Source: Nitrososphaeraceae archaeon (GTDB lineage Archaea; Thermoproteota; Nitrososphaeria; Nitrososphaerales; Nitrososphaeraceae). From it: a stretch of DNA of 36,398 nucleotides. The stretch covers positions 1 to 36,398 of the forward strand of contig WHTU01000033.1 in assembly GCA_009377575.1 (NCBI GenBank). Direction: 5' to 3'. Shown here piece by piece: positions 3,717-22,219 of the stretch; the first letter of the stretch is position 1; every line of letters begins with the position of its first letter. The notes beneath the pieces were generated by a model. The model was not told the origin of the DNA, made no database searches, and saw only the letters and a program-made list of their open reading frames with translations. A program made the translations under genes and the position numbers.

Positions 3717-3835
3717 TAACACGCTTTAGTGCATAATTAATTCTAATATCATATGTCATTAGCCTAATATTGATCAGTTAACTTGATTAGTAAATCTTTA
3801 AATGTATTATCCTATTCTGGAGAGTTGTACTAAGT

Positions 3836-6095: not shown

Positions 6096-6250
6096 TATAT
6101 CCTGATTAAGACAGTCGAATCAACAATGGTAACTTCATAGTAGATAAGGATTCAGAATCGGAGATCTCTTTTCTAATAGACCGATGAGGGAAAAATAGAT
6201 CCCTTTCCGCAAAAGTAAAAGAGATAGTATCGCCCTGTGTGAAGTCTGCA

Positions 6251-6275
6251 AACAAATGATATTTATCAATTTGTT
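6251..6275. terminator. Hairpin downstream of the STAND gene
   Basis: AACAAA-TGATA-TT-TATCA-A-TTTGTT can fold into an 11-bp stem with one bulge, 16 bases past the stop of the minus-strand gene at 6291. A possible 3' end signal, not certain because archaeal terminators are mainly T-runs. Confidence 0.35.
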
Positions 6276-6290
6276 CTGGAGCTACATAAA

Positions 6291-9200
6291 CTAGCCATTA
6301 CTAATGATATTCTTATACTTTTCATGCTTTCTTATGCTGTCAAAAATATGTTCATCTTTTATCATCTGCAAATACTCTCTGCCTCCAAATCGTTTTGAAT
6401 TTGTCAAATCATCTAGACATCCGTCTACGTCTTTGAGCATAAGTCGGCAGATTGACCTTCCATAATACCCGTAGGCCGACGAAAGGGTCAGATTCAGAAT
6501 TTTGTCGAAGCATTTATTTCCTTCATTCCATTCTTTGAGCAAAATATGGGCGTGGCCCTTATTGGTCAATGCATACACATTATCTGGTTCAAGTTCTAGC
6601 GCAGTATTGTAACTCGCGATTGCCACTTTAAGGTCTCCTCTCTTAGAATAAGCTACACCCTTATTGACCCACGCTCCTGATATACCAGGCTCAATAATTA
6701 TCGCTCTTTCACTCAGCTCGATTGATTCATCTAGTCTATTAAGTTCCAAAAGCGCAATTGCTTTTTGACGTATTGCCGGAGCATGTTTAGAGTCTATTTC
6801 TATTATTCTGTCTATAAAATCAATCGCGTCGGTATATTTACCGATCATATTACTAGACCAGCCAGAATACAATAGTGCGCTAATATTTTTTGGTTCCTTT
6901 TCTAGAACAATTGATAATGTAGTAATCGATTGCAGATATTCCTTAGTAAAGAAAAAATAGATCCCTTTATTAGTCAATGCTCCGATATTATTTGGTTCAA
7001 TCGAGAGTGACTTTTCAATTGATTCTAATGCCTCGTTGTATTGACCCATAATAATTAATGGTCCAGCCATAGACGCCCATGCTCGGGCATCATCTTGATT
7101 TAATTCAACAATTTTCGCATAACACTTGACTGAAATCTCATATTGTCCTATATCACTACATACTATCGCTTTATTGTTCAATGCTTCATAATCATTTGGA
7201 CTAATCTCTAAAGCTTTGTCAAAGCAATACAAAGCCTGTTCGTATTTTTTCAAGACATATAATACACCCCCTTTGTTTAGCCATCCTTTCTCATTCCTAG
7301 CATCGATGTTTATAACCTGATCGTAACAATTCAAGGCGCTTTCTAATTTGCCCATCTGATGATATGCGTTACCTTTATTTAGCCAAGATATGGGATACTT
7401 TGGCTCGACCTCTAATGCTTTATCATAGCATTTTATTGCCTCTTCATATTGACCCAAATCTGTAAGTGAGTTACCTTTATTATATAGAGCCTCTACACGA
7501 TCTGAGTCGATCTCCAATGCTTTGTTGTAGCATACCAAAGCTTGTTGAGGCTTGCCCATTTTACTATAAACCGAACCCTTATTAACCCACGATGGAACAT
7601 GAAGCTGATTAATCTGAAGCGCCTTGTCATAAGCTTCTATCGCCTTGTTAAATTCCTTTGCCGAAGAATAATAGTTCCCATATCCAAAGCAATGGATATT
7701 CACAGTATCGGAACTTGTTAGATTTTCTGGAATTGTAGAATTATTTATCAATATGGATGCCAAAGATTGATACTTCATTTCGGATATAAAAGAAGAACAT
7801 CTATTCATAACTGTTATGATTGCGTCGGCATTGAGATTTTCTAGAAGGCAATTTATCATGCTTCCCAACCCATATGAATTGTTTAACGCAATTGCATCAT
7901 TATTAAAATACTTATAAAAAACATACGTCAAGAATTCGGTAGCCCATCTTTCATGCCTAACTTCATAATCGTCATTTTTGAATAGAAAACCTTCACTGAC
8001 GAGAGATATTAAATCGTTAGAATAGATATTACAATTAACTAACAATTCTCGCGTTAGCTTGATACCTAAAGCCCCAGCCAGGGAACAAAATATGGCGGGT
8101 CTCCAAAGATTCTGTCTACTATCAAGCATTAATTTTTTTTCAAGTATATCATTTTCTAGGAAATTAGTATTAACTGTTACACCGTCAGTGCTATCACGCT
8201 TTAGAAATTCCTTGAGAGCGTCCACAAACAATAAAGGATCTCCTTTTGAGTAACCAAATAGGGAATTTGCTAATTCCTCCGCAAATTGGCCAACCCGATC
8301 TGGATTCGAGAGAAATCTAAGAGATTTTTCTACCAACTTAATTGCATCCCTCTGACTGAAACTTGGTCGAAACATGCGCATATTTTGAAGAGCATATTCT
8401 ACTTCCCTAACTTCGCTCACATCCAATGATTCCTTAAATTTTACAAATTCGTTATCACGTGCCGAGAATAGAAATCTAATATATTGTGACTCTGGTTTAT
8501 CCAACTCGTTGTAGAATTCAAACATCTTTTCATTACCTCTTTTTTGCATATTATCTCCTATAATCATCAATTTAGAAGATTTGTATTTTCTAATTACGTT
8601 TTGAACAAGAGATCCAAGGAGCTCAAGGGATGGGTCCTTTAGCTCTTCCATATATAATACATTATAATCTTGAAGAATTTTTTCGAACATGACTCTTTTT
8701 AAGAGTGTAGTCTTTCCATAGTGAGAACGCGCTAAAATTATTGTTCCTCTATTGCTCTCCATAGAGCCTAAAATATCGTCCGTAATGTCTCTGCGGGCGT
8801 CAAAATATTCCTTAATTTCCGCATCGGTGAAGTGGGCTATTTTCCAACAATTCCTGTTTGGAGTTCGGAATGCAGAGGAGATTGTTACTAATTTAATACC
8901 TAGCCTTGACAGACATTCCCTAATTTGGACATCGTAGGTGTCGTCTAAAATGACTATGTTCATGTCTATAACCTCTTTGATCCTATCTTTGGTAATTCTC
9001 TTTGAATCAATTTCCACTTTCGATTGTTCCTTATTATAATCGGAAACAAAAGCTTTAACAACATCAAATGATCCCTCAACTTTTTTTGAGGACGCGTCGT
9101 AAATCATGTTTCTCAATAGCTTAAACACTTTTTCCAAACTATCATAAGAAACACTCTTTCCAATCACCTCAGGCAACTTAGTTAGACTATCAGATATGAT

Positions 9201-9752
9201 CTTAGAATCAATGTCTTCCATTCTTGGACCCGGAGAATCGCTTCCACTTTCTACCTTTCTTAATACATTCACAACCTCAACTGGGTTCGCCCCAACCTTC
9301 TCCTTCATATAATTAAAAAAGCTAGTAAGCTGTCTCTTGCTTTTAGAACCTTCAGAATAATTGAGTAACGCCGAACTATTTAGTGATAAATTTTCTCGGA
9401 TTCCGCAATTTGTTACTATAAGATATTTTGTTATGACATTTTGATATTTTCTTTCCGTTTTTATGAAGTTCGTGATGCTGCTTTTGATTTCGTCGTCATT
9501 CCATGAAAAAGAGCCACGATTTCTAGTTTTAACCTGATAAACTTCATATCTCCCGTCTTTCCTTTTGGCTAAAATATCCCCTCCTTGTTCACACAGCAAT
9601 TCTAGATATGGGAGTCTGCCGACATACATTTCAATTGCTATTAGACAAGTATAGGAATGTTGATAGGCAAATCCTCGTTGCGATATATCTCCACCATCGC
9701 TAATCGGATGGTCGTCTGGGACTCGCTCAGCATTACTTTCCGGAGAGGGCAA
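6291..9752 (-). CDS. Putative antiviral STAND protein: DUF4297 (Cap4-like) nuclease + P-loop NTPase + TPRs
   Basis: An 1153-residue multidomain protein. Residues about 25-115 resemble the DUF4297/Cap4 nuclease domain: GFAYQHSYTC, then CEQGGDILAKRKDG and YEVYQVKTRNRGSFSW, giving the D...(E/Q)xK pattern of PD-(D/E)xK nucleases. Around residues 330-410 lies a P-loop ATPase: GTIILARSHYGKTTLLKR (Walker A, GKTT) and SKLMIIGDNMQ (Walker B, one acidic residue). From about residue 690 onward there are 12-13 TPRs (WVNKGSVYSKMGKPQQALVC is typical). Effector-NTPase-repeat sensor order is that of STAND immune proteins such as Avs. The likely model is that TPRs sense a viral protein, the NTPase oligomerises and the nuclease cuts DNA. 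The start is TTG at 9752; no ATG fits. Single gene, flanked by pseudogenes. Confidence 0.8.
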   Translation of the reverse strand: MPSPESNAERVPDDHPISDGGDISQRGFAYQHSYTCLIAIEMYVGRLPYLELLCEQGGDILAKRKDGRYEVYQVKTRNRGSFSWNDDEIKSSITNFIKTERKYQNVITKYLIVTNCGIRENLSLNSSALLNYSEGSKSKRQLTSFFNYMKEKVGANPVEVVNVLRKVESGSDSPGPRMEDIDSKIISDSLTKLPEVIGKSVSYDSLEKVFKLLRNMIYDASSKKVEGSFDVVKAFVSDYNKEQSKVEIDSKRITKDRIKEVIDMNIVILDDTYDVQIRECLSRLGIKLVTISSAFRTPNRNCWKIAHFTDAEIKEYFDARRDITDDILGSMESNRGTIILARSHYGKTTLLKRVMFEKILQDYNVLYMEELKDPSLELLGSLVQNVIRKYKSSKLMIIGDNMQKRGNEKMFEFYNELDKPESQYIRFLFSARDNEFVKFKESLDVSEVREVEYALQNMRMFRPSFSQRDAIKLVEKSLRFLSNPDRVGQFAEELANSLFGYSKGDPLLFVDALKEFLKRDSTDGVTVNTNFLENDILEKKLMLDSRQNLWRPAIFCSLAGALGIKLTRELLVNCNIYSNDLISLVSEGFLFKNDDYEVRHERWATEFLTYVFYKYFNNDAIALNNSYGLGSMINCLLENLNADAIITVMNRCSSFISEMKYQSLASILINNSTIPENLTSSDTVNIHCFGYGNYYSSAKEFNKAIEAYDKALQINQLHVPSWVNKGSVYSKMGKPQQALVCYNKALEIDSDRVEALYNKGNSLTDLGQYEEAIKCYDKALEVEPKYPISWLNKGNAYHQMGKLESALNCYDQVINIDARNEKGWLNKGGVLYVLKKYEQALYCFDKALEISPNDYEALNNKAIVCSDIGQYEISVKCYAKIVELNQDDARAWASMAGPLIIMGQYNEALESIEKSLSIEPNNIGALTNKGIYFFFTKEYLQSITTLSIVLEKEPKNISALLYSGWSSNMIGKYTDAIDFIDRIIEIDSKHAPAIRQKAIALLELNRLDESIELSERAIIIEPGISGAWVNKGVAYSKRGDLKVAIASYNTALELEPDNVYALTNKGHAHILLKEWNEGNKCFDKILNLTLSSAYGYYGRSICRLMLKDVDGCLDDLTNSKRFGGREYLQMIKDEHIFDSIRKHEKYKNIISNG

Positions 9753-10071: not shown

Positions 10072-10434
10072 ATGTCTTCGGATATAGCACAAGAAACAGA
10101 ATGGGATTCATTGGTATCACAGAAGAAGCTCGTAGCTGCTGACTTTTGGGCTCCATGGTGTCCGTATTGTATGAGATTGAAACCTATATTCGAATCCATC
10201 GCAAGTAAATACCCGGATATCGAATTCGTTAAAGTTAATGTTGATGAACAAGAGGGGTTAGCATCCAGTTATGGTATACAAGGCATACCTGTAATAAAGT
10301 TCTTCTGTGAAGGCAAAGAAGTAGGTGAGATTGTTGGATACGTACCTCAACAAGAATTAGAGAAAAAGATTGGTCAAATAAGTAGTGAAGCTCCAGCCTG
10401 CTTAGCAAATACCTCTAAAAGCAAGACCAGTTAA
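10072..10434 (+). CDS. trx: Thioredoxin
   Basis: A 120-residue single-domain thioredoxin that reduces disulfides in the cytoplasm. The active-site segment ADFWAPWCPYCMRLKPIFE carries CPYC (usual CGPC replaced by CPYC, a common archaeal variant), and the cis-proline loop is IQGIPVIKFF. FVKVNVDEQEGLASSYGI matches the beta3-alpha3 region. There is no signal peptide. An extra C-terminal tail with one more Cys (SSEAPACLANTSKSKTS) goes beyond the core fold. Leaderless start supported by a TATA box. It lies between the STAND gene and the replication element. Confidence 0.93.
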   Translation: MSSDIAQETEWDSLVSQKKLVAADFWAPWCPYCMRLKPIFESIASKYPDIEFVKVNVDEQEGLASSYGIQGIPVIKFFCEGKEVGEIVGYVPQQELEKKIGQISSEAPACLANTSKSKTS

Positions 10435-10799: not shown

Positions 10800-11456
10800 T
10801 TATCTTTTCAGACCTTTAAACAATGAAAAATCTTTTCCGAACAATGTTTTATTGTTAAGTCGTGCTTGCAACATTGGATTAACCTCAGCCATCTTACGAA
10901 GATCAATCTCTGATAAACTTTTCTTTACATTCAAAAACGATTCTGGTCCAGCGGTCAGCCTTTGAAGACGGCTGTCATACATCTGCATTAAAAGCGATAT
11001 AGCATTCATCTTTTCTTTCCTGGTGGTATCTTTATTTTGAACCATCTCCCATAGCGTTCTAGTTATCTCATTAGAGCCTACTAGATAACGTAGGTATTCT
11101 AGCAATATGTCTTCTCTCATATACTTTTCTACATGCTTTTTTGATTCTTGCTGAACAAGGTGTAAATCTCTACTTACCGTAGACTGATCTATACGCAGCT
11201 CTTGAGCTATTTGTTCCTGGTTTAGGCCTCTACTATGCAGTCTAAGTACTGCTGATAGTCTATTTTCTCTTTCGATGTTTTCTAACTGCCTGCAGGTGGA
11301 GATCTTGAGGTCACCGACTTTCTCCAATGATTTTGTCGATGATGATACTTCTTCATTGTTATTTAACAGCAGACCTTGTTCTTCTGGCACTGGAATTAGT
11401 TTTACGGTGCCCTTTTTATGCACAGTCAAGCTCATTTTATGCAATATATTCTCCAT
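10800..11456 (-). CDS. HTH DNA-binding protein of the replication element
   Basis: A 218-residue protein, last gene of the minus-strand replication block. Residues about 64-100 (RLSAVLRLHSRGLNQEQIAQ then ELRIDQSTVSRDLHLVQQE) form a clear helix-turn-helix of the sigma-70 region 4 / resolvase type. The N-terminal 60 residues are polar and probably flexible; the C-terminal half is helical (IDLRKMAEVNPMLQARLNN). A regulator or origin-binding protein of the element is the best guess; terminase small subunits share this layout, but no large terminase is present. It is separated from the primase by 138 bases containing a perfect palindrome that could be its operator. Confidence 0.7.
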   Translation of the reverse strand: MENILHKMSLTVHKKGTVKLIPVPEEQGLLLNNNEEVSSSTKSLEKVGDLKISTCRQLENIERENRLSAVLRLHSRGLNQEQIAQELRIDQSTVSRDLHLVQQESKKHVEKYMREDILLEYLRYLVGSNEITRTLWEMVQNKDTTRKEKMNAISLLMQMYDSRLQRLTAGPESFLNVKKSLSEIDLRKMAEVNPMLQARLNNKTLFGKDFSLFKGLKR

Positions 11457-11550
11457 AAGTTAGCTTTAAGCATTTGTGTTTCCAAAAGAAATACGATGCT
11501 TATGACGAAAGGTGTCCAAATTATACCCTTAAACACTCTCATAAGTGCAA

Positions 11551-11562
11551 ATACAATTGTAT
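11551..11562. promoter_or_regulatory. 12-bp perfect palindrome ATACAATTGTAT
   Basis: A perfect inverted repeat in the only sizeable gap of the replication operon, 95 bases upstream of the HTH gene start and just after the primase stop. A dimeric regulator, possibly the HTH protein itself, could bind here. AT-rich short palindromes also arise by chance. Confidence 0.3.
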
Positions 11563-11594
11563 TCTTTAACTAATCGCAGCATATAACATTCGAT

Positions 11595-12710
11595 CTACTT
11601 TTTAGTTACTAAAATACTGTACAATTCTCCATTTTCTGTCTTCAAAGTTTTAGGTTCCTTCTCTGGATTATCTAGACTAATTGGCAAGTAGCCTCTATCA
11701 ACTGCATTAGTCAGACAATCATTTATCTTAGGTTCAGTATCGAAGTCCAATGGTTCTAGATCATCGCACTCGTTTAACCATTTGTCTATAATATCAAATG
11801 CTTCATCAAACGATAAACATTTGACATTGATAAGATAAGGTGCAAGAATTCTCCATATGCAATACTTCCTATGGTCTGATATAGGTGTTCTTAAAAGGTT
11901 TTCAATCCATGGTATAAAATACCCTTTTTTACTCTTAGCCCGTAGTTGATAAAACCTTTGTAATATATTTAATTGGGATGAATTGCTATTATTATTCGGT
12001 CCCCGATTTACAAGATATGTAAAGAATTTATCATAAAGCAAATATGCTGGCACTTTGTAAGTGCTATTCCATTTCTGTATAATCCGAACTTGCATGTTAT
12101 TCTTTGAATTGAAAGACGCAGGTATTCTCAACATACAATTATTGAAAGACATAGTTTTGTTGTGCCCACTATCACATTTACCATTAGAGAGATACCATTC
12201 TGCAAACCTTAGAAATTCCTTGCTAGGTTCTTTAGACTTTTTAAATTTTGACATTCGTTCTAAAATATTACCTTGAGAATCTGCAGGGATATAGAGATGA
12301 TAACCATTGCCCGACCATATCACAGTTGTTGGTTTAATAGATTTATTACGAATTCGAAATGCTGTTGATATCTTTGATATAGTCCTAGTTTTTGCCTTGT
12401 TCAATTCTTGTTTAGATTTGAACTTTGAGCGGTCAATGTCTATCATAATAAAATCAACTATCTCATTTCCCTCATTATAGGCACTAATTCGGCAATCTAG
12501 ATAATTCGAATCTTTAAAATATGATAATGCTTCTAACCTTGAATGCACTGTAAACTGCCGGCCCTCAGTTAGTTTGGTTGATATAGTTCTCGGCCAATAT
12601 GGCTTATTTAAATGACTTAGAATGAATTCTAAACCTTTCTCAACCTGCTTTTCAACAATAGTATTATTGGCAGAAGAATACTCTAAAGAATAGGAAGTTT
12701 TGAAATTCAT
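11595..12710 (-). CDS. Primase / primase-polymerase of the archaeo-eukaryotic (AEP) superfamily
   Basis: A 371-residue protein with AEP motifs: motif I in VDFIMIDIDRSKF (Asp91 and Asp93, DxD), motif II in TTVIWSGNGYHLYIPAD (SGxGxH, His138), and downstream CMLRIPASFNSKNNMQVRII, the R-P-x-S-x-N-x-K stretch of plasmid and viral PrimPol-type primases. The C-terminal 130 residues are helical (RKYCIWRILAPYLINVKCLS) and resemble the accessory helical domain of these enzymes. It would make primers for the polymerase encoded two genes upstream. The start, ATG 12710, lies 8 bases after the SSB-like gene, so they are co-transcribed. Confidence 0.75.
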   Translation of the reverse strand: MNFKTSYSLEYSSANNTIVEKQVEKGLEFILSHLNKPYWPRTISTKLTEGRQFTVHSRLEALSYFKDSNYLDCRISAYNEGNEIVDFIMIDIDRSKFKSKQELNKAKTRTISKISTAFRIRNKSIKPTTVIWSGNGYHLYIPADSQGNILERMSKFKKSKEPSKEFLRFAEWYLSNGKCDSGHNKTMSFNNCMLRIPASFNSKNNMQVRIIQKWNSTYKVPAYLLYDKFFTYLVNRGPNNNSNSSQLNILQRFYQLRAKSKKGYFIPWIENLLRTPISDHRKYCIWRILAPYLINVKCLSFDEAFDIIDKWLNECDDLEPLDFDTEPKINDCLTNAVDRGYLPISLDNPEKEPKTLKTENGELYSILVTKK

Positions 12711-12718
12711 TTCGAATT

Positions 12719-13213
12719 TTAATGATTCTTCTTTCTACCTTTTTCCATCTTTCTAGGTTCTTGATGTTCTAGTTCCTTTGCATAGTATTGTGTATCTGTG
12801 CCTGTACCTCTTGTCCACACATGCATTCGTGTTATACCCCCTTCGAACAATGAAAAGACTACTCTTAGTGCCCTGATGCTAGTTGTGTTCCAAATTCTCT
12901 CATTCCCACTTTCTGGTTCCTTCAATTTTATTTGCACACACGGTCCGAATTTTCCATTAGCCTCAGTGTCTATATCTAAAATTTCTATGGATTTCCCTTT
13001 ACCTGCAAACTCCACAGGTCTTACAAACTTGAGCTTTCCGGCCATGAATTCTTTTACCTTCTTGAGATTTGCTGCAGCTTTCGGGCTTAGTTTGGTTTTT
13101 TGGACTCTGGTACCTGTGCTTCTGTTGGAGATAGAGATAAGTTTATCTCCAACGGCCTTCCTTCTTTTTTTGGTGCTGCTAACACCTCTATTTTTTCTAT
13201 TTCTCATATTCAC
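12719..13213 (-). CDS. Probable OB-fold single-strand DNA-binding protein
   Basis: A 164-residue protein. Residues 1-55 are very basic (RNRKNRGVSSTKKRRK), then comes a beta-rich core: IEILDIDTEANGKFGPCVQI, KLKEPESGNERIWNTTSIRA, VVFSLFEGGITRMHVWTRG and TGTDTQYYAKEL. The order (strand, GKFGPCV, G-x-x-R-x-W, then G-x-G-T-x-T-x-Y) is that of OB-fold ssDNA-binding proteins of small replicons. It ends in another basic stretch. A role in coating template strands for the adjacent polymerase and primase fits well. Assignment rests on fold pattern and context, not on a sequence match. Confidence 0.55.
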   Translation of the reverse strand: MNMRNRKNRGVSSTKKRRKAVGDKLISISNRSTGTRVQKTKLSPKAAANLKKVKEFMAGKLKFVRPVEFAGKGKSIEILDIDTEANGKFGPCVQIKLKEPESGNERIWNTTSIRALRVVFSLFEGGITRMHVWTRGTGTDTQYYAKELEHQEPRKMEKGRKKNH

Positions 13214-13252
13214 TCATTCCGTGAGTATTTAATGCAGATTGGCATAACCCAG

Positions 13253-15202
13253 TCACACCGCGGGGAGGTTCTGCATAACGTGACCATCATTGTTGTTCTT
13301 TCTCTTGATAGTTCTAACGTCAAATTTTTCTGCTAACTCGTTAACTGGATATTTTGTAATTTCTAGTACTTCACTGACACTATTCCAGAGAGACTGCTTA
13401 TACTTTGAAATGTCGATATGTCTATAATTTTTGGACCAGCTTCGGCCAGTCTTCTTGATATTAGAGTCAAAGTATTCTACCAGTTCACCTTTCTTGGCAC
13501 CAACAGCCCTACCTATCTTAGCTGCTTGACATGTTTGGGATTTGTAATCTTTAGGATTCTGGCCGAGCCTAATTGATTTCTTCAATAGTTTTGGGTCTAC
13601 TTTACCTGACTCTAAAGTGTACATTGCTTTTTCCAGGGCCGGAATCGGGTTTGTGTTATTTTTGATAATGCTGTTTATTAAGCCATTAAATGTCTCTTTA
13701 ACAAATTCACACCTATCATTCTTTTTACCTTCATAACCTACAATGGCAACTAACCCATTTTCATAACCGATGTAGTGTTTTTTACCTGCACTCAAAATTA
13801 GTGTATTGTAAGTATTTTTCTCTTCATTTTCGATATCCAACTTTTCTTTGCATAACTTTTGAAACTTGGAAAGAGTAATTTTAGATGGCGGGTTATTTAA
13901 GAATAAGCTATCAGTATCACCATAGATAATATGAAAACCTAATTTCTTAGCAATGTCTTGCATTTTAGTAAGTGTATACCTACCATATGTTGTTACTAAT
14001 TCGGCTACCATTGGATTATAATAACTGAATTTAGTGTGTCCAAAGACACCATAACCACCATTAATTAAGATTTTTAATGCTAGTTGCTTTGCTCCATTAC
14101 CCAATTTTTTCTGTTGAAGCCTTTCATGTCTGAATATCTTTAATTTTTTAGGAAATGCACCTTCTCTTTTCTGGCATATCCAGCACTTATTTTTGCTAAT
14201 GAATTTACAACCTTTAAAAAATGTATCATTTAGCTTTACTTTTGCACGTGAATTATTTTTGCAGCATTTGCAATTGACTGTATCAAATGATAGATTGGAA
14301 TGTATTGATACGGTAGGGTACAGGCTTGCTGCATCTACAACAACTGTATTATGATATAATCCCTGTTTTGGGTCAAGGACTAATGCGCCTTTGTATTTTA
14401 CACTCTCTCTATCAAAAGTATTAAACGGTTCAGGACATTCACCATTTTGTATCATTTGGTCAAATAAAACCCCCCACCATGTGGTCAGATTAGTTCGGCA
14501 TACACGTTCGAAATCTAATCCTGTTATCTCGGATATTGCAAGCATAGCGTCCAGAACTTCGAAATTGCTATGCTTTGATAATTCCATTACTAATTCTGAA
14601 TCTCTAAGCGAATACTTCTTTCGATCTTTGATTGATAGTTTCAGGAAGTCTTTTCCACCCAACCCTTTGAATTTTCCATGTCTCAGTAGCGCTTTTGAAA
14701 CATCGTCTAGTTTGTGAGTTCTGTATGCTCGATTGTAAATCGTATTTTGCACCATTTGTTTATTGTAAACTTGGTACAAATCGATATGGTATAAGCCAGG
14801 TATGCTATAGTAGGCCCGGCTTCCTTTCTGAGATTTGAAAATTATGTTGTCTATACCATTAGTCTCGCACCTTTCATAAAGCACGCCAAGGTCACATTGC
14901 ACATCGTCAGCGATGAAGTTATCATTTGCTATATCATTTAAATTGCCTCCATTGGAAGTACCTCCATTATTATTATTTTCAAAACTAGTGTTAGAATTCC
15001 AACCTATAGACCAACTATATTCCAAAAGCTCTGCTTTGATATTTTCTAAAAGTGCGATTTCTGAATGTGAATTAAGGTATACTTTCTTGCTTCCAAGGTT
15101 GTTGACAAATGATGCTGCCAGCATAATATGTGTGGTGTTGTCCCATTCAAAGTCAAATGCAACATACTCACCTAATATCTGGCAGACTTTTGGTAATTTC
15201 AA
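13253..15202 (-). CDS. polB: Family B DNA polymerase with 3'-5' exonuclease
   Basis: A compact 649-residue PolB. Exonuclease motifs: ExoI YVAFDFEW (D17, E19), ExoII around SIGWNSNTSFE, ExoIII KKYSLRDSELV (Y197, D201). Polymerase motif A is VVVDAASLYPTVSI (from D290), motif B KILINGGYGVFG (377-388), motif C IIYGDTDSLF (YGDTDS 427-432). Between A and B lies a putative zinc-binding insert (CKCC near 311 and CKFISKNKCWIC at 332-343). There is no obvious extra TPR1-sized insertion, and a primase is encoded nearby, so a nucleic-acid-primed enzyme is favoured over a protein-primed one. It differs from the much longer chromosomal PolB. The start overlaps the helicase stop by four bases. Confidence 0.93.
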   Translation of the reverse strand: MKLPKVCQILGEYVAFDFEWDNTTHIMLAASFVNNLGSKKVYLNSHSEIALLENIKAELLEYSWSIGWNSNTSFENNNNGGTSNGGNLNDIANDNFIADDVQCDLGVLYERCETNGIDNIIFKSQKGSRAYYSIPGLYHIDLYQVYNKQMVQNTIYNRAYRTHKLDDVSKALLRHGKFKGLGGKDFLKLSIKDRKKYSLRDSELVMELSKHSNFEVLDAMLAISEITGLDFERVCRTNLTTWWGVLFDQMIQNGECPEPFNTFDRESVKYKGALVLDPKQGLYHNTVVVDAASLYPTVSIHSNLSFDTVNCKCCKNNSRAKVKLNDTFFKGCKFISKNKCWICQKREGAFPKKLKIFRHERLQQKKLGNGAKQLALKILINGGYGVFGHTKFSYYNPMVAELVTTYGRYTLTKMQDIAKKLGFHIIYGDTDSLFLNNPPSKITLSKFQKLCKEKLDIENEEKNTYNTLILSAGKKHYIGYENGLVAIVGYEGKKNDRCEFVKETFNGLINSIIKNNTNPIPALEKAMYTLESGKVDPKLLKKSIRLGQNPKDYKSQTCQAAKIGRAVGAKKGELVEYFDSNIKKTGRSWSKNYRHIDISKYKQSLWNSVSEVLEITKYPVNELAEKFDVRTIKRKNNNDGHVMQNLPAV

Positions 15203-17151
15203 TTTATTAGTAACACCTCTCTTTTTTTAGTTCTGTTTTTTAAAGTGTTTTTCTTGGAGGCAGTGGAGGCAGTAGAGGCAGTATTTGGCGATAAGCAAGC
15301 TTTTTTAATATAATTCTTGGAGTGCTTGTGTTTTCGATCTTTTCTTGAGTATCTCTGTTTGGATTTTAAAGAAAAACCGTGCTTACACCCAGAGACCGCC
15401 TCCACTGCCTCCACTGCCTCCCGCTTATTCTTAGTGCTATTGTTACCAATGATCCTTACTTTGATATCAGTTGGTGATTCATATATTCTTGATAGCTTTT
15501 CTAGATTCTTTGGATCAAACTTTAGATATCTTTCACCTTTCTTTAACCCATTGTTATGTTTTTTTCTCTCTGCACCAAAAATTTCTTGCAGCGACTTAGT
15601 TACACTACCTTGATAGATAATACCAAAATCTTCACATTCAAAAGACATTGATTTACCTACAATATCTCGACCCTGTAATTGGTCTTTTAAATTAACCCAT
15701 ATTAACTTAGATTTTAATTCTATAGTTTTCTCTCTTTTGATTAATTCTGTTATAACTTTGTATAGAGCTGCATGAAATGTGTTTAGACGTCTTTCTCTAT
15801 AATCGGAAAGATATTTATTAATTCCTAACTTTAATTCTTCTAATGCTCTGCGCGTCTTTTGGAACACTCGAAATGTAGGTTTAAACAATTGTTTTTCTCT
15901 ATCTTTGATATTAAGTTCTACATTTGGTATTTCATCGAAGTAATGTAATAGTCTATAAATTAACAACATATTCCTTAATTTAAATAAATCATCTAGTAGC
16001 TGCTGAAGTTTCTTATCCCCACCGGGTTCAATTATTTCAGCAATATCATATCTCGGGCTTCCATGAGTACAATTGAAAGTTATACAGCGCTGTCTGAACC
16101 CTTTTGCTTTTCTTACATCTGGCAATTCTTCAGCTGCAAATGCTTTAAAGCAAAATGTTTTGAATCTAAATTGTTTTCTACCGAAACTGATATCTGTCCG
16201 GAATACATTGATATTTGTAGTAGCCCCATCTTTGTAAATACCCATTTTTGTTCGGTCTTCGTCAATACTATCAGCCTCGTCTTCACATATAGTAACAACA
16301 CCATTTTTATCATTGCCAAGTAATTGATATATATTAGGTGCTGTCATATCTGAAGACAAAACATTTCGATATGCCAATATGTTGAACATGTGTAGATTAT
16401 TAGATTTGCCTGTTCCGTTGTCACCTACAAAAAAATCATAGTGTGTTGTCCCAAGTTTGTCCTGGAAGTATGTAAAGATGGTATCTCCAGTACACATAAT
16501 ATTATGTTCCTTTCCATTATCAATGTATAGGTTCCATTGTGCCTTTACTTTCTGGAACAGAGTATCTAGATTCTCTTTAGATTTTACTTGGTGTTCAATT
16601 TTTCTAAATTCTTTTTCTGAATCAAATTCGTAAGGTCTACTTCCATATAGATTGGCCGACAAAGGTAAGATAGCATTAACTTCATCTATTTGAATTTCAG
16701 TGCATAAAGAAATTCTACTCGAATTTGTTGACACTTTTGCGAAAAGAGGAATCCCATCAATAATTATAGCTTCATAGAGGGTTGTCTTATCAACATATAC
16801 TGTAGCATAAGTTTGATTAAGGGTTTCACTATCAGATTCATTTCCTGCGTTACCATTTCCTGGTTGTAAGTATTGGATATAATTATTATCAGGATGCACT
16901 AAGACATGTTCCATTTTGCTAATAATTCTTTCAGATAGACCTGCAGTGTTATTCAGGGCAGATTCTCTAAATCTCTCCATTGTCAGTCGGAATTCTTTTG
17001 GATGTCTATCGAAAGAGATAATCTTATCTTTGTTAACCACAATTTGTACTAACTCTCCTTGTGTAACGAATTTAGTAACTCCTAGATTTTTTAATTTGTT
17101 ATCAATAGGTATGTCTTCTGTTATAACCAACTTTTTTAGAAGCCCTCCCAT
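15199..17151 (-). CDS. P-loop replicative helicase / ATPase of the element (SF3-like)
   Basis: A 650-residue protein. The N-terminal 240 residues have no known motif. The ATPase core shows Walker A YDFFVGDNGTGKSNNLHMF (GDNGTGKS, about 243-250) and Walker B GVVTICEDEADSID (about 285-295). After it come conserved-looking KTFCFKAFAAEELPDVRKAK and FRQRCITFNC, the sensor/arginine-finger region of helicases that drive plasmid and viral replication. Position next to polymerase and primase supports a replicative helicase; SF3 or another AAA-like class cannot be decided by eye. The C-terminal 80 residues are basic and contain EAVEAVEAV and TASTASTAS, encoded by an inverted 9-bp repeat. Four-base overlap with polB. 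Confidence 0.75.
   Translation of the reverse strand: MGGLLKKLVITEDIPIDNKLKNLGVTKFVTQGELVQIVVNKDKIISFDRHPKEFRLTMERFRESALNNTAGLSERIISKMEHVLVHPDNNYIQYLQPGNGNAGNESDSETLNQTYATVYVDKTTLYEAIIIDGIPLFAKVSTNSSRISLCTEIQIDEVNAILPLSANLYGSRPYEFDSEKEFRKIEHQVKSKENLDTLFQKVKAQWNLYIDNGKEHNIMCTGDTIFTYFQDKLGTTHYDFFVGDNGTGKSNNLHMFNILAYRNVLSSDMTAPNIYQLLGNDKNGVVTICEDEADSIDEDRTKMGIYKDGATTNINVFRTDISFGRKQFRFKTFCFKAFAAEELPDVRKAKGFRQRCITFNCTHGSPRYDIAEIIEPGGDKKLQQLLDDLFKLRNMLLIYRLLHYFDEIPNVELNIKDREKQLFKPTFRVFQKTRRALEELKLGINKYLSDYRERRLNTFHAALYKVITELIKREKTIELKSKLIWVNLKDQLQGRDIVGKSMSFECEDFGIIYQGSVTKSLQEIFGAERKKHNNGLKKGERYLKFDPKNLEKLSRIYESPTDIKVRIIGNNSTKNKREAVEAVEAVSGCKHGFSLKSKQRYSRKDRKHKHSKNYIKKACLSPNTASTASTASKKNTLKNRTKKREVLLIN
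15256..15421. repeat. Inverted pair of 3 x 9-bp tandem repeats inside the helicase gene
   Basis: 15256-15282 holds three units of GGAGGCAGT (the third begins A), and 15395-15421 holds the same three units in reverse complement (one has a G instead of A). The 27-bp arms match at 25 of 27 positions and are separated by 112 bases. They encode TASTASTAS and EAVEAVEAV in the protein's basic tail. Iteron-like arrangement and strong potential to form a cruciform suggest an origin, a binding site or a packaging/resolution site; expansion of a low-complexity tail is the alternative. Confidence 0.75.
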
Positions 17152-17372
17152 TCTTTCTTTCTTCGATGAGACTTTGCTTTATAAGACGTGAAATACTCAC
17201 ACCTGCAGCCTGAAATCATACAGTGGCCTTGTTCAAGATCATCGTTTTTTGAGTGATCAATCAGGTGGTGGGCGCAGTTACAGATTGCATTACACCCACA
17301 CCAAAGGCGCTCGGAATCTTTATTAAAAACGTCAGATAAGTTATTAGTGGCACCTAAGGTCTCCTCGCCTCC
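17136..17372 (-). CDS. Cys/His-rich zinc-binding mini-protein without canonical start
   Basis: A frame of 78 codons lies between the 112-residue gene and the helicase, overlapping the first by 19 bases and the second by 16. It reads LWCGCNAICNCAHHLIDHSK, then QGHCMISGCRCEYFTSYK and a basic end. About six Cys and several His could bind two zinc ions. There is no ATG, GTG or TTG before the Cys cluster, but the frame is open into the end of the upstream gene. It may be made by frameshifting from that gene, by a rare start codon, or be a decayed gene. The tight overlaps argue it belongs to the operon. Confidence 0.5.
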   Translation of the reverse strand, partial: GGEETLGATNNLSDVFNKDSERLWCGCNAICNCAHHLIDHSKNDDLEQGHCMISGCRCEYFTSYKAKSHRRKKEWEGF

Positions 17373-17692
17373 TTATCTAATTCAGTCTGGAGTGCTTGGA
17401 TTGCTTCGGTTGTCTGTATTTGGTCTGGGTTCGGAGGGATCATTTCTGGGTGAACCTCCTGATCCGCCTCTTTGTTTCGTTTTGGGTTTACTGTTATGGT
17501 GATCTCCCTATGTTTTAGATGACTTGGGTCTTTGCATTCTATTTGCAGTCCTTTCCCAAGAACATCGATATAAGATCCTGGACAAGGTATCGTAAGGCAT
17601 TTGGTTATCTTGATCGTCGATTTGTGTTTCTTCGACTTTTGTTGATTGCTACCTTCTGATGACCCGTTTTTGTGTTTTACCTTGGGGCTCAC
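17354..17692 (-). CDS. Hypothetical basic/acidic small protein of the replication operon
   Basis: A 112-residue hydrophilic protein from a GTG that overlaps the stop of the zinc-ribbon gene by 4 bases (GTGA), which points to translational coupling. The N-terminus is Lys/Ser-rich (HKNGSSEGSNQQKSKKHK), followed by a small beta-like core (TKCLTIPCPGSYIDVLGKG and LQIECKDPSHLKHREITITV) with two to three Cys/His that might bind metal. The Pro/Glu-rich tail is probably helical (QALQTELDKEARR). Family not recognised. It may be extended by frameshift into the overlapping Cys-rich frame downstream. Confidence 0.5.
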   Translation of the reverse strand: MSPKVKHKNGSSEGSNQQKSKKHKSTIKITKCLTIPCPGSYIDVLGKGLQIECKDPSHLKHREITITVNPKRNKEADQEVHPEMIPPNPDQIQTTEAIQALQTELDKEARRP

Positions 17693-17877
17693 TTAACAGC
17701 AACATCTCCTGTATGCGATTTTTTCTTAGAGTGTAATCTTATCGTGGTATGACAGCGGGGACAACTGCACACATATTCAGCCTTGCCTGTAAAAAGCCAT
17801 TGATGCCCACATTTGCATGTGATAGGTCTTGCGCTTTTCTGTACAGTTGTAGGTTTACCTATTCTACTAACGGACAT
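17689..17877 (-). CDS. Zinc-ribbon protein, first gene of the replication operon
   Basis: A 62-residue protein with ITCKCGHQWLFTG and YVCSCPRCHTTIRLHSKKK. Two CxC/CxxC pairs form a classic zinc ribbon, flanked by basic residues fit for DNA or RNA contact. It is the promoter-proximal gene of the operon that leads to the helicase, polymerase, SSB-like protein and primase. An AT-rich TATTATTATAG (17885-17895) lies between it and the divergent gene, only 18 bases apart. Probably a regulator or replication accessory factor. Confidence 0.6.
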   Translation of the reverse strand: MSVSRIGKPTTVQKSARPITCKCGHQWLFTGKAEYVCSCPRCHTTIRLHSKKKSHTGDVAVK

Positions 17878-17895
17878 TCAGTCATATTATTATAG

Positions 17896-18897
17896 TTGAA
17901 GGCAAAAACAACTATTGTTTTGTCCCCCACAAAATTGAGAATAAATGGATCCTTTTCCTGTCCTAAATGCAAGAGGGTTGGGGGAAGACTGAAAATAATG
18001 ACAGAGAGAAGAAAAGGGCGAAATAACTTAAGAAGTGATTTCCCGAGACTTAAAAAGGTAGTTTACAACTATGGTAATGCCGATGAAGAAGCAAAGATTC
18101 CCATTAATAGGAAATTGCATCCTTGGAAATATTTAAGCATAGTTTATGCACTTATGGGTATGAGACCATCTAAGAATCCCTACATAAATCCTCCTTCTTC
18201 ACGCGAAGGCCCGCCTGCATTTGACAGAACACTGGATTCATTTATCGATTTCTTTAAAAGAATGTCTATATTGCATATGACGATCCCAAAAATACTCGCC
18301 AAGTATCCAGAGATCAACGGTTTCCTTGAAAAGTACGACCTTGTTGACGAAATAATTCATTATCAGGATATCTTATGTCGTTCTATCAATTCGGCAATCG
18401 ACTTTAGATACAGTAGAAGCCTTATAGAATGGTCAGAAATAGCAAGATTTGCAGATCAGAGAAGTGATAAAGCGGCGTCAAAGAAATTTTATGGAAGGTA
18501 TTGGGATAACGGTAAAAAAGTGCATTTATCAATAAGACAAATTAAGAAAAAGAGTCGAGTACTTAGAAATCATGGAGTATCTAGCAGTGAATTTGAACAG
18601 AAGATTCGGCGTTACATAGAACTTCTTCAGCCGTTTATTATGATAATCCAAAGAGACGAAGAGATATTTAAAGAATATAAAAAGATTGAAAGAGAATTCG
18701 AATTGCCACATAAGGACATTCGATACGAATATCAGTATTTTAAAATGATTCACTATGACCATGATCTGTATGAAAAGCAAAAGTTGGAATACAATAGCGG
18801 ATTAAGAAAATCTAAGCCTGATGGAAGGATCGAATGTCGTATTAACAAATCTGACATTCCTCCTCAAATATTTACTAATAAGGATTATATTCAGTAG
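17896..18897 (+). CDS. Unknown 333-residue protein with N-terminal CxxC, divergent to the replication operon
   Basis: The frame is open from a TTG at 17896, but later TTGs (17920, 17935) or ATG 17998 are possible; the segment before ATG 17998 contains SFSCPKCKRVGGRLKI, half of a zinc ribbon, which favours an upstream start. The rest is basic and helical, with conspicuous Tyr/Arg-rich stretches (DFRYSRSLIEWSEIARFADQ, KDIRYEYQYFKMIHYDHD). No catalytic motif was recognised. The divergent arrangement with an 18-bp gap suggests shared regulation with the replication operon. It converges on the recombinase gene across hairpins. Confidence 0.6.
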   Translation: MKAKTTIVLSPTKLRINGSFSCPKCKRVGGRLKIMTERRKGRNNLRSDFPRLKKVVYNYGNADEEAKIPINRKLHPWKYLSIVYALMGMRPSKNPYINPPSSREGPPAFDRTLDSFIDFFKRMSILHMTIPKILAKYPEINGFLEKYDLVDEIIHYQDILCRSINSAIDFRYSRSLIEWSEIARFADQRSDKAASKKFYGRYWDNGKKVHLSIRQIKKKSRVLRNHGVSSSEFEQKIRRYIELLQPFIMIIQRDEEIFKEYKKIEREFELPHKDIRYEYQYFKMIHYDHDLYEKQKLEYNSGLRKSKPDGRIECRINKSDIPPQIFTNKDYIQ

Positions 18898-18905
18898 TAT
18901 TTGCT

Positions 18906-18937
18906 AATAACAGTGTTATTGGTTGAATTAATTCAAC
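18906..18937. terminator. Two adjacent hairpins between convergent genes
   Basis: AATAAC-AGT-GTTATT (18906-18920) is followed directly by the 16-bp perfect palindrome GTTGAATTAATTCAAC (18922-18937), starting eight bases after the stop of the 333-residue gene. A transcription end or a protein-binding site are both possible. Confidence 0.45.
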
Positions 18938-18983
18938 GTGGAGAAAAGACTACGTCTTTAAATCCATATCGAGATCCTGAGTA

Positions 18984-19013
18984 TCCATAATCATGCTTCT
19001 TAATAATTATGGA
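18984..19013. repeat. Inverted repeat TCCATAAT / ATTATGGA
   Basis: Perfect 8-bp arms with a 14-nt loop in the gap downstream of the tyrosine recombinase gene. It could help terminate recombinase transcription or serve as a recombination arm site; neither can be shown from sequence. Confidence 0.35.
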
Positions 19014-19064
19014 GCCAGATCTAGGTAATACGATAACGGTTCAAGCATACGAAAGAATTTGATC

Positions 19065-20363
19065 CTATTTTTTAGCTTTCCTTCTCATCTCCTTCAGTAG
19101 TCCCGAAGAGAACATCATTTGCGACACCGTATTAAGCTGCTGTTGATCCGTTGTTTTGGAGAGACACGAAAGGAGGTTCCCCATCATCGACTGCATAGAC
19201 GAGAATTGTTCTGTTAAATTAAGTATCTGATCGTCCTTTTCCTGAAGCTTGCCTCTAATTATATATTCACTATCTTTGCTTTTCTGTTTTAGGTCAGCAA
19301 CTTGTTTTGTCAGCATAGTTTTGTCGTTACTGATGGTTAGTGATTCTACTGCCTTAAGATAATCTTCTAATACCTCACTTTCTCTAGGTTTGTAATATGA
19401 CGCCGAGACTCCAATATTATGACCTAGCGTTATCTCCACGTTGATTGGTCTCATTACTTGTTCCGCATGCGTCTTGTAAAACTTTCTAAAACCATGCGCT
19501 GATTTCCATTCGTGTCTCCTCACTCCATCTGGTAGTGATTGACGGATTCCTTGTTCCCATAATGCTCTTTCCAAAAGGCGCTTTATGCCACTACTCTTTA
19601 ACTTCTTTGGTGCTGTTGCAAGTCCCACCTTAGCTCCGTAATTTACGTTTGTGGTTTGCCATATGTCCCTCATTACCCACGAGGCCCCTGTGATCTTTTC
19701 TCCGTATGATGACCTAAAATCCATCCATTCCTTTAGCGCATTATATGCTTCAGGAGTAACGAACGTATAATATTCGTCCAGTTCTCCAGCATAAACGATT
19801 AACTTGGCAGCAATTAGGTTTCCCTTTTCATCACAAACTGCATTAACATGCTTCCACTGCAGATATTCCCATGCTCCCAGTCTTATGCCTGAAGATGCCA
19901 TCATATAGACAATTGGTTTTATTCTTCTGTCGGGATATTGTATCAGTTTTAGAATCTCTTCCCTTGTTGGTGCTCTATCATTAGCCGCCTGTCTTCCTCG
20001 AGGAACTCCTCGAGAAATTTTTTTCCAGCTCACTTGAACATCATTCATTTCACAAAATAACTTTATTGCTTTCAGGTAGTTCGGAATGGTCGACAGAGAA
20101 ATTTCCCCTCTCTGAGCTCTTTGAACCTCGTATGAAATGAATTGTATTATTCTGTCCTGAACCAGCGCCATACCTCCTTCCCTACATAAAGTCATGAACT
20201 GTTTAGCCTGTTCATCAGGGTTCCCAGGAAAACCTAAGAAATCAAAGACGACTCGCAATCTGTTAGGCCACTGCCTTTTCGTTTCAGGCGCCTTCAAGGC
20301 ATATAGAAATTGTGAAAGCGGATTAGCTGTTTGTTCTGTGATTGCCATGGATTTCCTAATCAT
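19065..20363 (-). CDS. Tyrosine recombinase / integrase
   Basis: A 432-residue tyrosine recombinase. The N-terminal core-binding domain (residues about 15-125) starts NPLSQFLYALKAPETKRQW and is followed by the catalytic domain: Arg I in MASSGIRLGAWEYLQW, the HxxR pair in KSAHGFRKFYKTHAEQ, LGHNIG, and the nucleophile Tyr in SASYYKPRE. A C-terminal coiled coil (TMLTKQVADLKQKSKDSEY) follows, as in many Nitrososphaeria integrases. It would join or excise the element through a covalent Tyr-DNA link. Start ATG 20363 is favoured by a TATA box; ATG 20348 (MAITEQ) is an alternative. The catalytic set is complete, so it may be active. Confidence 0.92.
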   Translation of the reverse strand: MIRKSMAITEQTANPLSQFLYALKAPETKRQWPNRLRVVFDFLGFPGNPDEQAKQFMTLCREGGMALVQDRIIQFISYEVQRAQRGEISLSTIPNYLKAIKLFCEMNDVQVSWKKISRGVPRGRQAANDRAPTREEILKLIQYPDRRIKPIVYMMASSGIRLGAWEYLQWKHVNAVCDEKGNLIAAKLIVYAGELDEYYTFVTPEAYNALKEWMDFRSSYGEKITGASWVMRDIWQTTNVNYGAKVGLATAPKKLKSSGIKRLLERALWEQGIRQSLPDGVRRHEWKSAHGFRKFYKTHAEQVMRPINVEITLGHNIGVSASYYKPRESEVLEDYLKAVESLTISNDKTMLTKQVADLKQKSKDSEYIIRGKLQEKDDQILNLTEQFSSMQSMMGNLLSCLSKTTDQQQLNTVSQMMFSSGLLKEMRRKAKK

Positions 20364-20383
20364 AACAATATACGAGCTGGGCC

Positions 20384-20391
20384 TAAATAAA
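20384..20391 (-). promoter_or_regulatory. TATA box of the recombinase gene
   Basis: Read on the minus strand the sequence is TTTATTTA, centred about 24-25 bases before ATG 20363, matching leaderless archaeal promoters elsewhere in the window. Confidence 0.45.
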
Positions 20392-20641
20392 GGGACAAGA
20401 TTGACATGGGCCCAAGGGGGTTTGGCAAGACTTTAAAGTGGTTTAAAAGACTTACGAGGAAATCTGTTCAAAATGACTTGAACCCAACATTCGACGGTAC
20501 CGATACTCGAAACTAATATTTAATGAACAACAACAGGTGCCTACGAGCAATAGTTAGAGTACTTTATATGAAAATCATGGCACTCTCCCTCGGTTCTTCG
20601 TATTGCACTGATTATATCGCAAACTGGCCAGTCATTGGTTC
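20392..20641. other. Intergenic region next to the recombinase
   Basis: No gene seen. This is the expected side for an attachment site, but I found no tRNA gene or tRNA 3' end, and no stretch repeated near 10.4-10.8 kb. Confidence 0.3.
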
Positions 20642-21160
20642 ATGCAAGAACACAAACTGGTGGAGTTGAATAAAATTATTGAAGAAAGAATTGGGTCTCT
20701 TAGAGAAGAAGTTGAAATAGGAACCAATGTGAAACTTAACCCGCTGTATTTGTTAGATCTCAAAGATGAAATAGTGTCTCTTCGGTGGACGACAAGAATT
20801 ATCAGTTGGATTTTAGATCGGGCTATCGACGGACAGCAGCAGCTTGGAGTAACCAAAAAGAGATTGGAATTAGAAGACACTAAAAAATTTGAAAATATGC
20901 TTGATGAAAAAAATCAGGAGTTAGAGATAGAGCTAGAAGATTCAAATACTGATAGAGAGGAAGAAATTCTCGTAAAAGAAATTGGCAATCTAAAATGCGT
21001 CTTAGGCCATCTGTTCAATCTGAAATCTGGTGGTGATAAAACACGCTCTATAGAGATTGCGGAAGCCAACGTTAACTTTCAGCAAGCAAATCGTCTAAGA
21101 AAGCAACTAATTAAGATCCAAGAGGTGAAGTCTGAGATTAGCGCACAAATACAAAATTAG
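20642..21160 (+). CDS. Coiled-coil protein of unknown function
   Basis: A 172-residue soluble protein, almost wholly helical and charged. Residues 1-30 (KLVELNKIIEERIGSLREEV) and 75-120 (ELEDTKKFENMLDEKNQELE) look like coiled coil. A Trp-containing segment in between (IVSLRWTTRIISWILDRAID) may pack as a bundle, and the C-terminus ends QLIKIQEVKSEISAQIQN. No catalytic residues or membrane segments. It may act as a structural or adaptor partner; its closeness to the recombinase suggests it travels with the element, but this is not shown. Confidence 0.6.
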   Translation: MQEHKLVELNKIIEERIGSLREEVEIGTNVKLNPLYLLDLKDEIVSLRWTTRIISWILDRAIDGQQQLGVTKKRLELEDTKKFENMLDEKNQELEIELEDSNTDREEEILVKEIGNLKCVLGHLFNLKSGGDKTRSIEIAEANVNFQQANRLRKQLIKIQEVKSEISAQIQN

Positions 21161-21185
21161 AGTTGACAGCATAGAAATTTGCTGA

Positions 21186-21416
21186 CTATATGCATCTTAA
21201 TAGAAAGCTACAGCTCTCACAGGAGTACACTAATTTATCGAAGTTCGAATGGAGCTCCATGATCTCATTACATCGTGGGCATTGAAATTCTCTGTCTAGT
21301 TTTGTTAACTCTGGCTCTTCTTTTTGTTCTGGTGGATTAGGTTCTTCTAATGTTTCAGAAACTTGATTTTCAGGTTCAGTTTTTGTTGATTGAGTAGTGG
21401 AGGATCTTATTGATTT
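21186..21416 (-). CDS. C-terminal zinc-ribbon frame lacking a canonical start
   Basis: A 76-codon frame with an N-terminal Gln/Glu/Pro/Thr-rich linker (TEPENQVSETLEEPNPPEQK) followed by a clear zinc ribbon, REFQCPRCNEIMELHSNFDK then YSCESCSFLLRCI. TAG lies directly upstream of the open frame and no ATG/GTG/TTG begins it. Either the gene was truncated at its 5' end, a frameshift separates it from an upstream start, or an unusual start codon is used. The linker-plus-ribbon layout suggests a DNA-binding adaptor. It converges with the coiled-coil gene. Confidence 0.45.
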   Translation of the reverse strand, partial: KSIRSSTTQSTKTEPENQVSETLEEPNPPEQKEEPELTKLDREFQCPRCNEIMELHSNFDKLVYSCESCSFLLRCI

Positions 21417-21553
21417 CTATTGAGACTTATATCATGAGCATAAGACAGTACAAAACAACAGGCGATATCAAGCTGTAACAGTAAATGCTAAGAAAATAAC
21501 AAACTGATAACAGACAGAAAAAGCTATCTGCAACGTATACCCATTAAAACATA

Positions 21554-22219
21554 TTGCAAGTTTTAAACAGCCAAGCGAAAGAGCAGTTAGTAATTAAGCT
21601 TCATCAGGAAGGTAAGACTATACGAGAGATTGCATCAGTAGCACATCTGTCGTTTACTGATATCAGTTCGATTATACGCAGAATAGATGGTAAAGTTGAT
21701 GATGGTGTCGACCTGAAAAACAAGTCCCCGGAAACGAAAGCGTTATCGCTATTTTCATCTGGCAAAAAACCAATCGACGTTGCAATAGAACTTAACCTAT
21801 CAGCTTCTGAAGTCCAAAACATATTAGAAGAATTTTGGGTACTAAATGAGATGGATGAATTAGCATTAGTATATCTTGAGATTAAGAATCATCTTACTCT
21901 GTTTCTCAGGTTATTTCATATAATGAAGAAGAACAGATTGATTAATCAAAAAGATATTCAGATTGTATTAAGATATGCTGCTTTTGATCTACCATCTTTA
22001 GAGAACAGGATTCAACGATCGACTAGTGATGTAATTGATATGGAATGGAAAAAGAAGCGATTAGTAGATGAGGTCATAAGGTTGAATTCGTATTTATCAC
22101 AACTAAAAAAGTTACTGAAGCGGCATAGAGTGCTTAGTCACTACGTCGATCTCATCTACACTCTGACTGTTATGTTTTATACCACTCCCTATACTTACCT
22201 ATGCCTGGAAAAGCACTAA
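21554..22219 (+). CDS. HTH regulator of the Nitrososphaeria LHxxGKTIREIA family
   Basis: A 221-residue protein from TTG 21554. Residues 1-45 (AKEQLVIKLHQEGKTIREIA then HLSFTDISSIIRRIDG) form a first HTH, and residues 60-95 (TKALSLFSSGKKPIDVAIEL then LSASEVQNILEEFW) a second HTH-like repeat. A helical middle (LEIKNHLTLFLRLFHIMKKN) and coiled coil follow. The family is abundant in Nitrososphaeria; a broken paralogue lies at 30107-30609. The last 25 residues run across the end of the opposite gene and look unlike the family, so the 3' end may be truncated near 22140. Target unknown. Confidence 0.65.
   Translation: MQVLNSQAKEQLVIKLHQEGKTIREIASVAHLSFTDISSIIRRIDGKVDDGVDLKNKSPETKALSLFSSGKKPIDVAIELNLSASEVQNILEEFWVLNEMDELALVYLEIKNHLTLFLRLFHIMKKNRLINQKDIQIVLRYAAFDLPSLENRIQRSTSDVIDMEWKKKRLVDEVIRLNSYLSQLKKLLKRHRVLSHYVDLIYTLTVMFYTTPYTYLCLEKH

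Follow-up and report, generated by a model that had tools for sequence, protein, structure and literature searches.

An integrated replication block in a soil archaeon

Does a compact block of replication genes beside a tyrosine recombinase gene in a soil ammonia-oxidising archaeon belong to the replication machinery of the chromosome or to a mobile element, and if the latter, to which kind? The block lies on contig 266 of a Nitrososphaeraceae draft genome (3.89 Mb). We analysed this contig at its full length of 36,398 nt (hereafter the window) against a data set of draft genomes that are split into short contigs, each species being represented by one genome, and with structure prediction from a shallow alignment. 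Our results show that the block is a mobile element rather than a chromosomal replication locus, and very probably a tyrosine-recombinase integrative element of Nitrososphaeraceae, equipped with a replication cassette of its own and located within an array of attachment sites derived from tRNA-Met. The ORF listing places all eight element genes on the minus strand between 10800 and 20363, with the following features in and around them (C33 denotes a second copy in the same genome, and G067:C530 a relative described below):

6291..9752, minus strand: possible cargo, a Cap4-nuclease/STAND/TPR defence-like gene (membership putative)
10072..10434, plus strand: possible cargo, a thioredoxin gene (membership putative)
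10800..11456, minus strand: HTH protein, possibly TerS-like, 218 aa (85% DNA identity to the C33 copy; relatives upstream of TerL-like genes)
11595..12710, minus strand: archaeo-eukaryotic primase (AEP) with a C-terminal PriX domain, 371 aa (PriX matches, motifs)
12719..13213, minus strand: g164, a 164-aa protein with no function assigned (ORF)
13253..15202, minus strand: family-B DNA polymerase (PolB), 649 aa (PF00136, motifs, tree clade)
15199..17151, minus strand: P-loop ATPase, probable helicase or replication initiator, 650 aa (Walker A/B)
17354..17692, minus strand: g112, a 112-aa protein with no function assigned (similar stretch in C33)
17689..17877, minus strand: zinc ribbon, 62 aa (relatives upstream of the ATPase in L053, L058, L062 and L072)
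17896..18897, plus strand: 333-aa ORF with a CxxC pair near its start, no function assigned (adjoins the recombinase)
19065..20363, minus strand: tyrosine recombinase (integrase), 432 aa (R, HxxR, H and Y motifs)
20369..20406, minus strand: recombinase-side arm "a", TCAATCTTGTCCCTTTATTTAGGCCCA (conserved in the C33 and G067:C530 copies)
20407..20422, minus strand: attachment core, the last 16 bases of tRNA-Met(CAT), AACCCCCTTGGGCCCA (recombinase-side end of the element)
20423..20489, minus strand: flank arm D1, probably belonging to a neighbouring element, as its distal end, rather than to the window element (D1-core is seen with right flanks a, b, c and others)

The genes for the ATPase and PolB overlap by 4 bp, as do those for the zinc ribbon and g112, while the AEP and g164 genes are 8 bp apart. 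The initial annotation had read seven or eight minus-strand genes as overlapping or nearly touching; genes, strand and overlaps hold, but the recombinase gene is set apart from the others by the plus-strand ORF (17896-18897, 333 aa) and the HTH gene is separated from the remainder of the block by 138 bp. An opposite-strand ORF also adjoins the integrase in C33 and in G005:C28. Every window gene has an open reading frame, and complete catalytic motifs are encoded by those for the recombinase, polymerase, primase and ATPase; since these motif sets are complete and conserved family-wide, chance is excluded as their origin. Scans against PHROGs and Pfam, which covered the core genes and several of those flanking them, detected no virion morphogenesis or conjugation module, the window gave no capsid or TerL match, and no partition or conjugation gene was recognised in the element. 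This agrees with the earlier statement that no capsid, terminase or conjugation gene is seen. Nor was Cas1 seen among the window ORFs and proteins scanned, again as stated earlier.

The replication proteins

The window PolB matches PF00136 (Pfam, 2.9e-34), carries the motifs ExoI (FDFEW), A (DAASLYP), B (KILINGGYG) and C (YGDTDS), and has Sulfolobus PolB1 as its nearest solved structure, and from its sequence we assign it to the primer-dependent main type, PolB1-like. In a tree built by quick search without bootstrap, with several long branches and an internal order that is not resolved, 18 mobile-element PolBs grouped in one clade (SH-aLRT 99), separate from the phylum’s chromosomal PolBs. 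A grouping with chromosomal replicases had been named beforehand as evidence against an element, and the window PolB instead falls within this mobile-element clade. Its Cys insert, proposed earlier as a hallmark, is real but is no family hallmark, because the host’s chromosomal PolB has cysteines at the same place.

The primase contains the motifs DID and SGNGYH (DxD and SGxGxH are invariant among relatives), its PriX domain scores above the curated cut-offs in Pfam and NCBIfam, and PriX structures match its C-terminal domain at 2e-14. For the ATPase, Walker A (GDNGTGKS) and Walker B (ICEDEAD) are both conserved in the family, while Pfam returned no match and neither a PDB profile search nor a Foldseek fold search was significant. 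Matches to MCM, ORC and D5 were weak (E about 0.1 or worse) and were set aside as a basis for its class; the protein is too divergent for a confident family match. Its earlier naming as a helicase is thus suggested by P-loop motifs and gene position but not by any family, profile or fold match, and we regard it as a probable helicase or replication initiator. The SSB-like label once given to g164 was dropped: the protein has no Pfam, NCBIfam or PHROG match, its single-sequence AF2 model was unusable (pLDDT 41), and hhalign comparison with proteins in like position of other elements was negative. Among IMG/VR viral contigs the primase and ATPase had no match and PolB found only distant phage-type polymerases, and a phage collection gave no match for primase or ATPase.

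The recombinase and its attachment site

The recombinase contains R (SGIRLGA), HxxR (HGFRK), LGH and SYYK motifs, which upholds the full catalytic set noted at the outset. Its match to XerA is weak (2.9e-7), and the protein is too divergent for a confident family match. Beside its start lies AACCCCCTTGGGCCCA, which is identical to the 3′ end (last 16 bases) of the genome’s own elongator tRNA-Met (C33:4528-4601), although the core in the window is not within an intact tRNA gene. Exact copies of this 16-mer are expected by chance about 0.0009 times in the genomes of the genus; allowing up to four mismatches, we found 39 distinct copies among the loci fetched, mostly in five genomes of the genus. 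Using flank classes and thresholds chosen after the sequences had been inspected, the left flanks were sorted into tRNA body, D1, D2, D3 or other and the right flanks into a, b, c, d or other, and they occur in many combinations, with the window being D1-core-a and the C33 copy D2-core-a. Because the core copies carry so many left/right combinations, repeated site-specific integration is indicated. The sequence following 20422 to the right probably belongs to another element, as its distal end. The 80-bp repeat at 20407-20489 was also considered as a MITE, an integron attC, a gene 3′ end or a promoter, and these were rejected given a core that is a tRNA-Met 3′ end and flanks that are exchangeable.

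Arm a follows an intact tRNA-Arg(gcg) in the same genome, a similar arm follows tRNA-Lys(ctt), and related recombinases in other genera adjoin intact tRNA-Lys or tRNA-Met genes. The pattern in the window is the one expected from published att sites of thaumarchaea, most of which are found in tRNA genes and whose median length is 17 bp (PMC6563490). The initial annotation had considered a block fixed at one site as evidence against mobility, and what we observed were copies at several sites with recombined flanks. Taken together, the motifs, the tRNA-derived core, the recombined flanks and the mobile-element PolB clade substantiate its central claim of an integrated element with its own replication genes.

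Relatives, module exchange and the left end

The second copy in the same genome, C33, has 85% DNA similarity to the window that is limited to 19224-20422 and 10805-11477, plus a short patch inside PolB. Its recombinase is 82% identical to that of the window, whereas its middle encodes MCM, a PolB and an AEP-PriX that differ from those of the window (28% and 29% identical, respectively), a zinc ribbon, and DprA-like and phosphoribosyltransferase proteins. Ends that stay nearly constant while the replication core between them is swapped document an exchange of modules between replicons within one genome, and in a circle the two conserved end pieces (recombinase and HTH) would be neighbours flanking attP.

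Complete relatives with a core at either end are 15.65 kb (G067:C530, with a broken recombinase), 16.5 kb (JALDRC010000002.1) and about 6.2 kb (contig C350 of the same genome) long. ATPase relatives were found in 23 of the 70 family genomes (up to nine matches in one genome) and once in Nitrosarchaeum, and at several loci the ATPase is paired with AEP without PolB. Where the context of PolB relatives is readable, an overlapping or touching ATPase gene, of several kinds, mostly precedes them and AEP-PriX follows in many cases; ATPase-PolB-AEP clusters also occur in other genera.

Searches of the window for the core, arms D1-D3 and direct repeats gave no second attachment core left of the HTH gene, so the window copy could be truncated. 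An 8-bp GGGGGTTT at 4759, which would make the element 15.7 kb, is close to chance expectation and is not claimed as its left end. In G067:C530 another 4.5 kb separates the HTH gene from the distal core, and thus the window element may extend further left and include the thioredoxin and Cap4/STAND/TPR genes. Both the thioredoxin gene and a partial secY, the latter located where the contig begins, are additional copies, which fits accessory DNA, their membership of the element being putative.

The HTH gene and its link to terminases

On about nine contigs, genes for relatives of the HTH protein (about 30-40% identical across residues 61-170) lie upstream of a TerL-like gene, which they overlap by 22-82 bp or precede within about 320 bp, and the TerL-like proteins match the phrog_2 terminase large subunit at 1e-16 to 5e-24. 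An HTH gene directly ahead of a TerL-like gene is the order typical of TerS-TerL. Because its relatives directly precede, and often overlap, TerL genes, the window HTH protein may be TerS-like, although direct TerS profile matches are weak (E 0.06 for the window HTH and 7e-4 for its relative in G068:C654). TerL is absent from the window and C33 elements and, in the sequence at hand, from the surroundings of many other HTH relatives; the window’s own long HTH subfamily (window, C33 and G068:C654) is without it in all three members. Among the other proteins scanned in C530, none matched a head or tail protein convincingly. One element with a TerS-TerL pair was reported, and left unexplained, by the 2019 survey of integrated elements in thaumarchaea (PMC6563490).

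Proposed mechanism and rival explanations

We propose that the attP of a circular element would lie between the HTH and recombinase genes, and that the recombinase would join it to the 16-bp tRNA-Met 3′-end core. After excision, the ATPase would open or unwind the element DNA, the AEP-PriX protein would make primers and the primer-dependent PolB would extend them. As the element supplies ATPase, AEP-PriX primase and PolB, little of the host replisome would be needed. Excision, the circular form, the ATPase acting as helicase, this division of labour and present activity are what we infer.

How such an element would travel is where the readings diverge. A plasmid-like integrative element without a virus link, moving as a plasmid or by uptake and using the HTH protein as a copy-number or transcription regulator, is in our judgement an evenly balanced proposition: virion genes are absent, the replication genes suffice for a plasmid, and published cryptic elements have been read as viruses or plasmids (PMC6563490), but no partition or conjugation gene was recognised and the TerL linkage of the HTH relatives is left unexplained. 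That linkage (about nine contigs with overlapping or adjoining TerL-like genes, phrog_2 1e-16 to 5e-24) is in turn what suggests a PICI-like virus satellite, which would replicate with its own cassette in the presence of a head-tailed helper virus, while an orphan TerS-like HTH protein steers its DNA into the particles of that helper. The window’s lack of a capsid or TerL match, an order of integrase, replication, terS and accessory genes as described for PICIs, and the occurrence of nearly the same recombinase and HTH in two elements whose replicons differ are consistent with it. We nevertheless consider it plausible but rather unlikely, as the window HTH is only 30-38% identical to the TerL-linked HTHs over about 110 residues, its own long subfamily is without TerL in all three members, it may be a regulator, and no helper virus was identified. 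The satellite reading is a special case of the integrative element that we favour, to which it adds a transfer mode. If true, these elements would correspond, in archaea, to phage-inducible islands and would carry a complete and exchangeable replicon of ATPase, PolB and primase in tRNA-Met arrays.

A decayed or domesticated provirus remnant that has lost its mobility would account for the missing second core in the window, and it draws on related loci such as C315, where TerL-like genes stand beside MCM-PolB-AEP, and on the broken recombinase of C530. We judge it improbable, since the window genes are all open with intact catalytic motifs and another site has a copy of the recombinase with 82% identity. 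The Cas1-less casposon relative envisaged by the initial annotation shares a PolB and integration into a thaumarchaeal chromosome; however, the polymerase is primer-dependent and PolB1-like with YGDTDS, mobility would rest on a tyrosine recombinase and a tRNA-derived core, and no Cas1 was seen among the window’s ORFs. Because PolB type, recombinase and att site all stand against it, we reject casposon kinship as scarcely credible.

Comparison with known systems

Casposons resemble the integrative element described here in encoding PolB and in being integrated in thaumarchaea, yet they use Cas1, inverted repeats and target duplications, none of which the window has, and their polymerases differ (pPolB in family 1; CDTDS in the PolB of A. 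boonei, family 2; YGDTDS in the window). PICIs and SaPIs (PMC6092414) likewise have an integrase at one end, a replication module and accessory genes in the absence of structural genes. Towards their other end lies a terS-like gene, for which the window’s HTH gene is a candidate; a terS homologue is present in some PICIs (PMC6092414). The window element differs from them in its PolB and its archaeal host. Phage-inducible islands and pipolins were not detected in archaea by the 2019 survey (PMC6563490), and we found no archaeal satellite of this kind in the literature searched, which left out most subscription papers and preprints.

Pipolins (PMC7385651) share a family-B polymerase of their own, a tyrosine recombinase, integration at tRNA genes and variable cargo. 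Their polymerase is primer-independent (piPolB), whereas the archaeal window element combines a predicted primer-dependent PolB, nearest in sequence to archaeal PolB1-type enzymes, with a separate primase and ATPase. The element is therefore no pipolin by its defining features, yet an own PolB joined to a tRNA-site tyrosine recombinase is a pipolin-like way of working.

The closest likeness is to the thaumarchaeal cryptic integrated elements (CIE, Krupovic et al. 2019, PMC6563490), which the same survey calls particularly enigmatic (PMC6563490). These have a tyrosine integrase, a short att derived from a tRNA 3′ end and mobile-type replication genes, with no virion or conjugation set, and the window block has the features of this class except for the second att site: of the two bounding att repeats it carries the core at the recombinase side only, while relatives carry both. 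The published PolB examples are a 98-kb element with MCM or a PolB-arCOG08101-RadA operon (PMC6563490), unlike the single cassette of ATPase, PolB and AEP-PriX in the window. We file the block as a variant of the cryptic elements. With its relatives it gives part of this class a recurring backbone of a tRNA-end tyrosine recombinase and an exchangeable ATPase/PolB/AEP-PriX set, to which several relatives add a TerS-like protein, and it makes two questions testable, namely whether tyrosine recombination is what moves archaeal elements that encode a polymerase, and whether virus satellites are among them.

Related elements and their accompanying genes

An arsR-type regulator and a gene for a 171-aa protein adjoin related ATPase-PolB-AEP (archaeo-eukaryotic primase) clusters in two genomes (loci L366 in G005:C28 and L367 in G008:C1), accompanied in G005 by a P-type ATPase, and these genes are possibly metal-resistance cargo. 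The borders of one related element are marked by 72-bp direct repeats that include tRNA-Glu; this 16.3-kb element (L065, G014:C47, 2710-19078) holds the ATPase and AEP inside.

The window's own genome carries a sister element on contig C33 (L067). Beyond the HTH gene of that element, at ~17290-18000, come a sequence resembling the C-terminus of Cas6, a short CRISPR array and then an HNH gene. On contig C315 of the same genome (L218), two genes for proteins resembling the terminase large subunit (TerL; 2249-3733 and 5933-7414) lie close to an integrase gene and a cluster of MCM, PolB and AEP genes, and apart from this pair no virion genes were recognised at the locus.

Genes flanking the element

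The following features lie on either side of the eight-gene block in the window.

6-689, +, C-terminal portion of an additional secY, where the contig begins
6291-9752, -, protein of 1153 aa that combines a Cap4-type nuclease, a STAND NTPase and TPR repeats
10072-10434, +, extra copy of thioredoxin
20581-22219, +, region of g172 and an HTH gene
20642-21160, +, g172
21554-22219, +, HTH gene (right of the element)

The g172 and HTH families occur in many repeats within the genus with conserved DNA, some copies lying near the D1 arm (in the window at 20423-20489, flanking the att core). The complete secY is on contig C111 and the other thioredoxin copy on C375, the surrounding stretch of which is conserved in two further genomes of the genus. 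The 1153-aa protein, whose defence-like gene adjoins the element, weakly matches LmuA of Lamassu.
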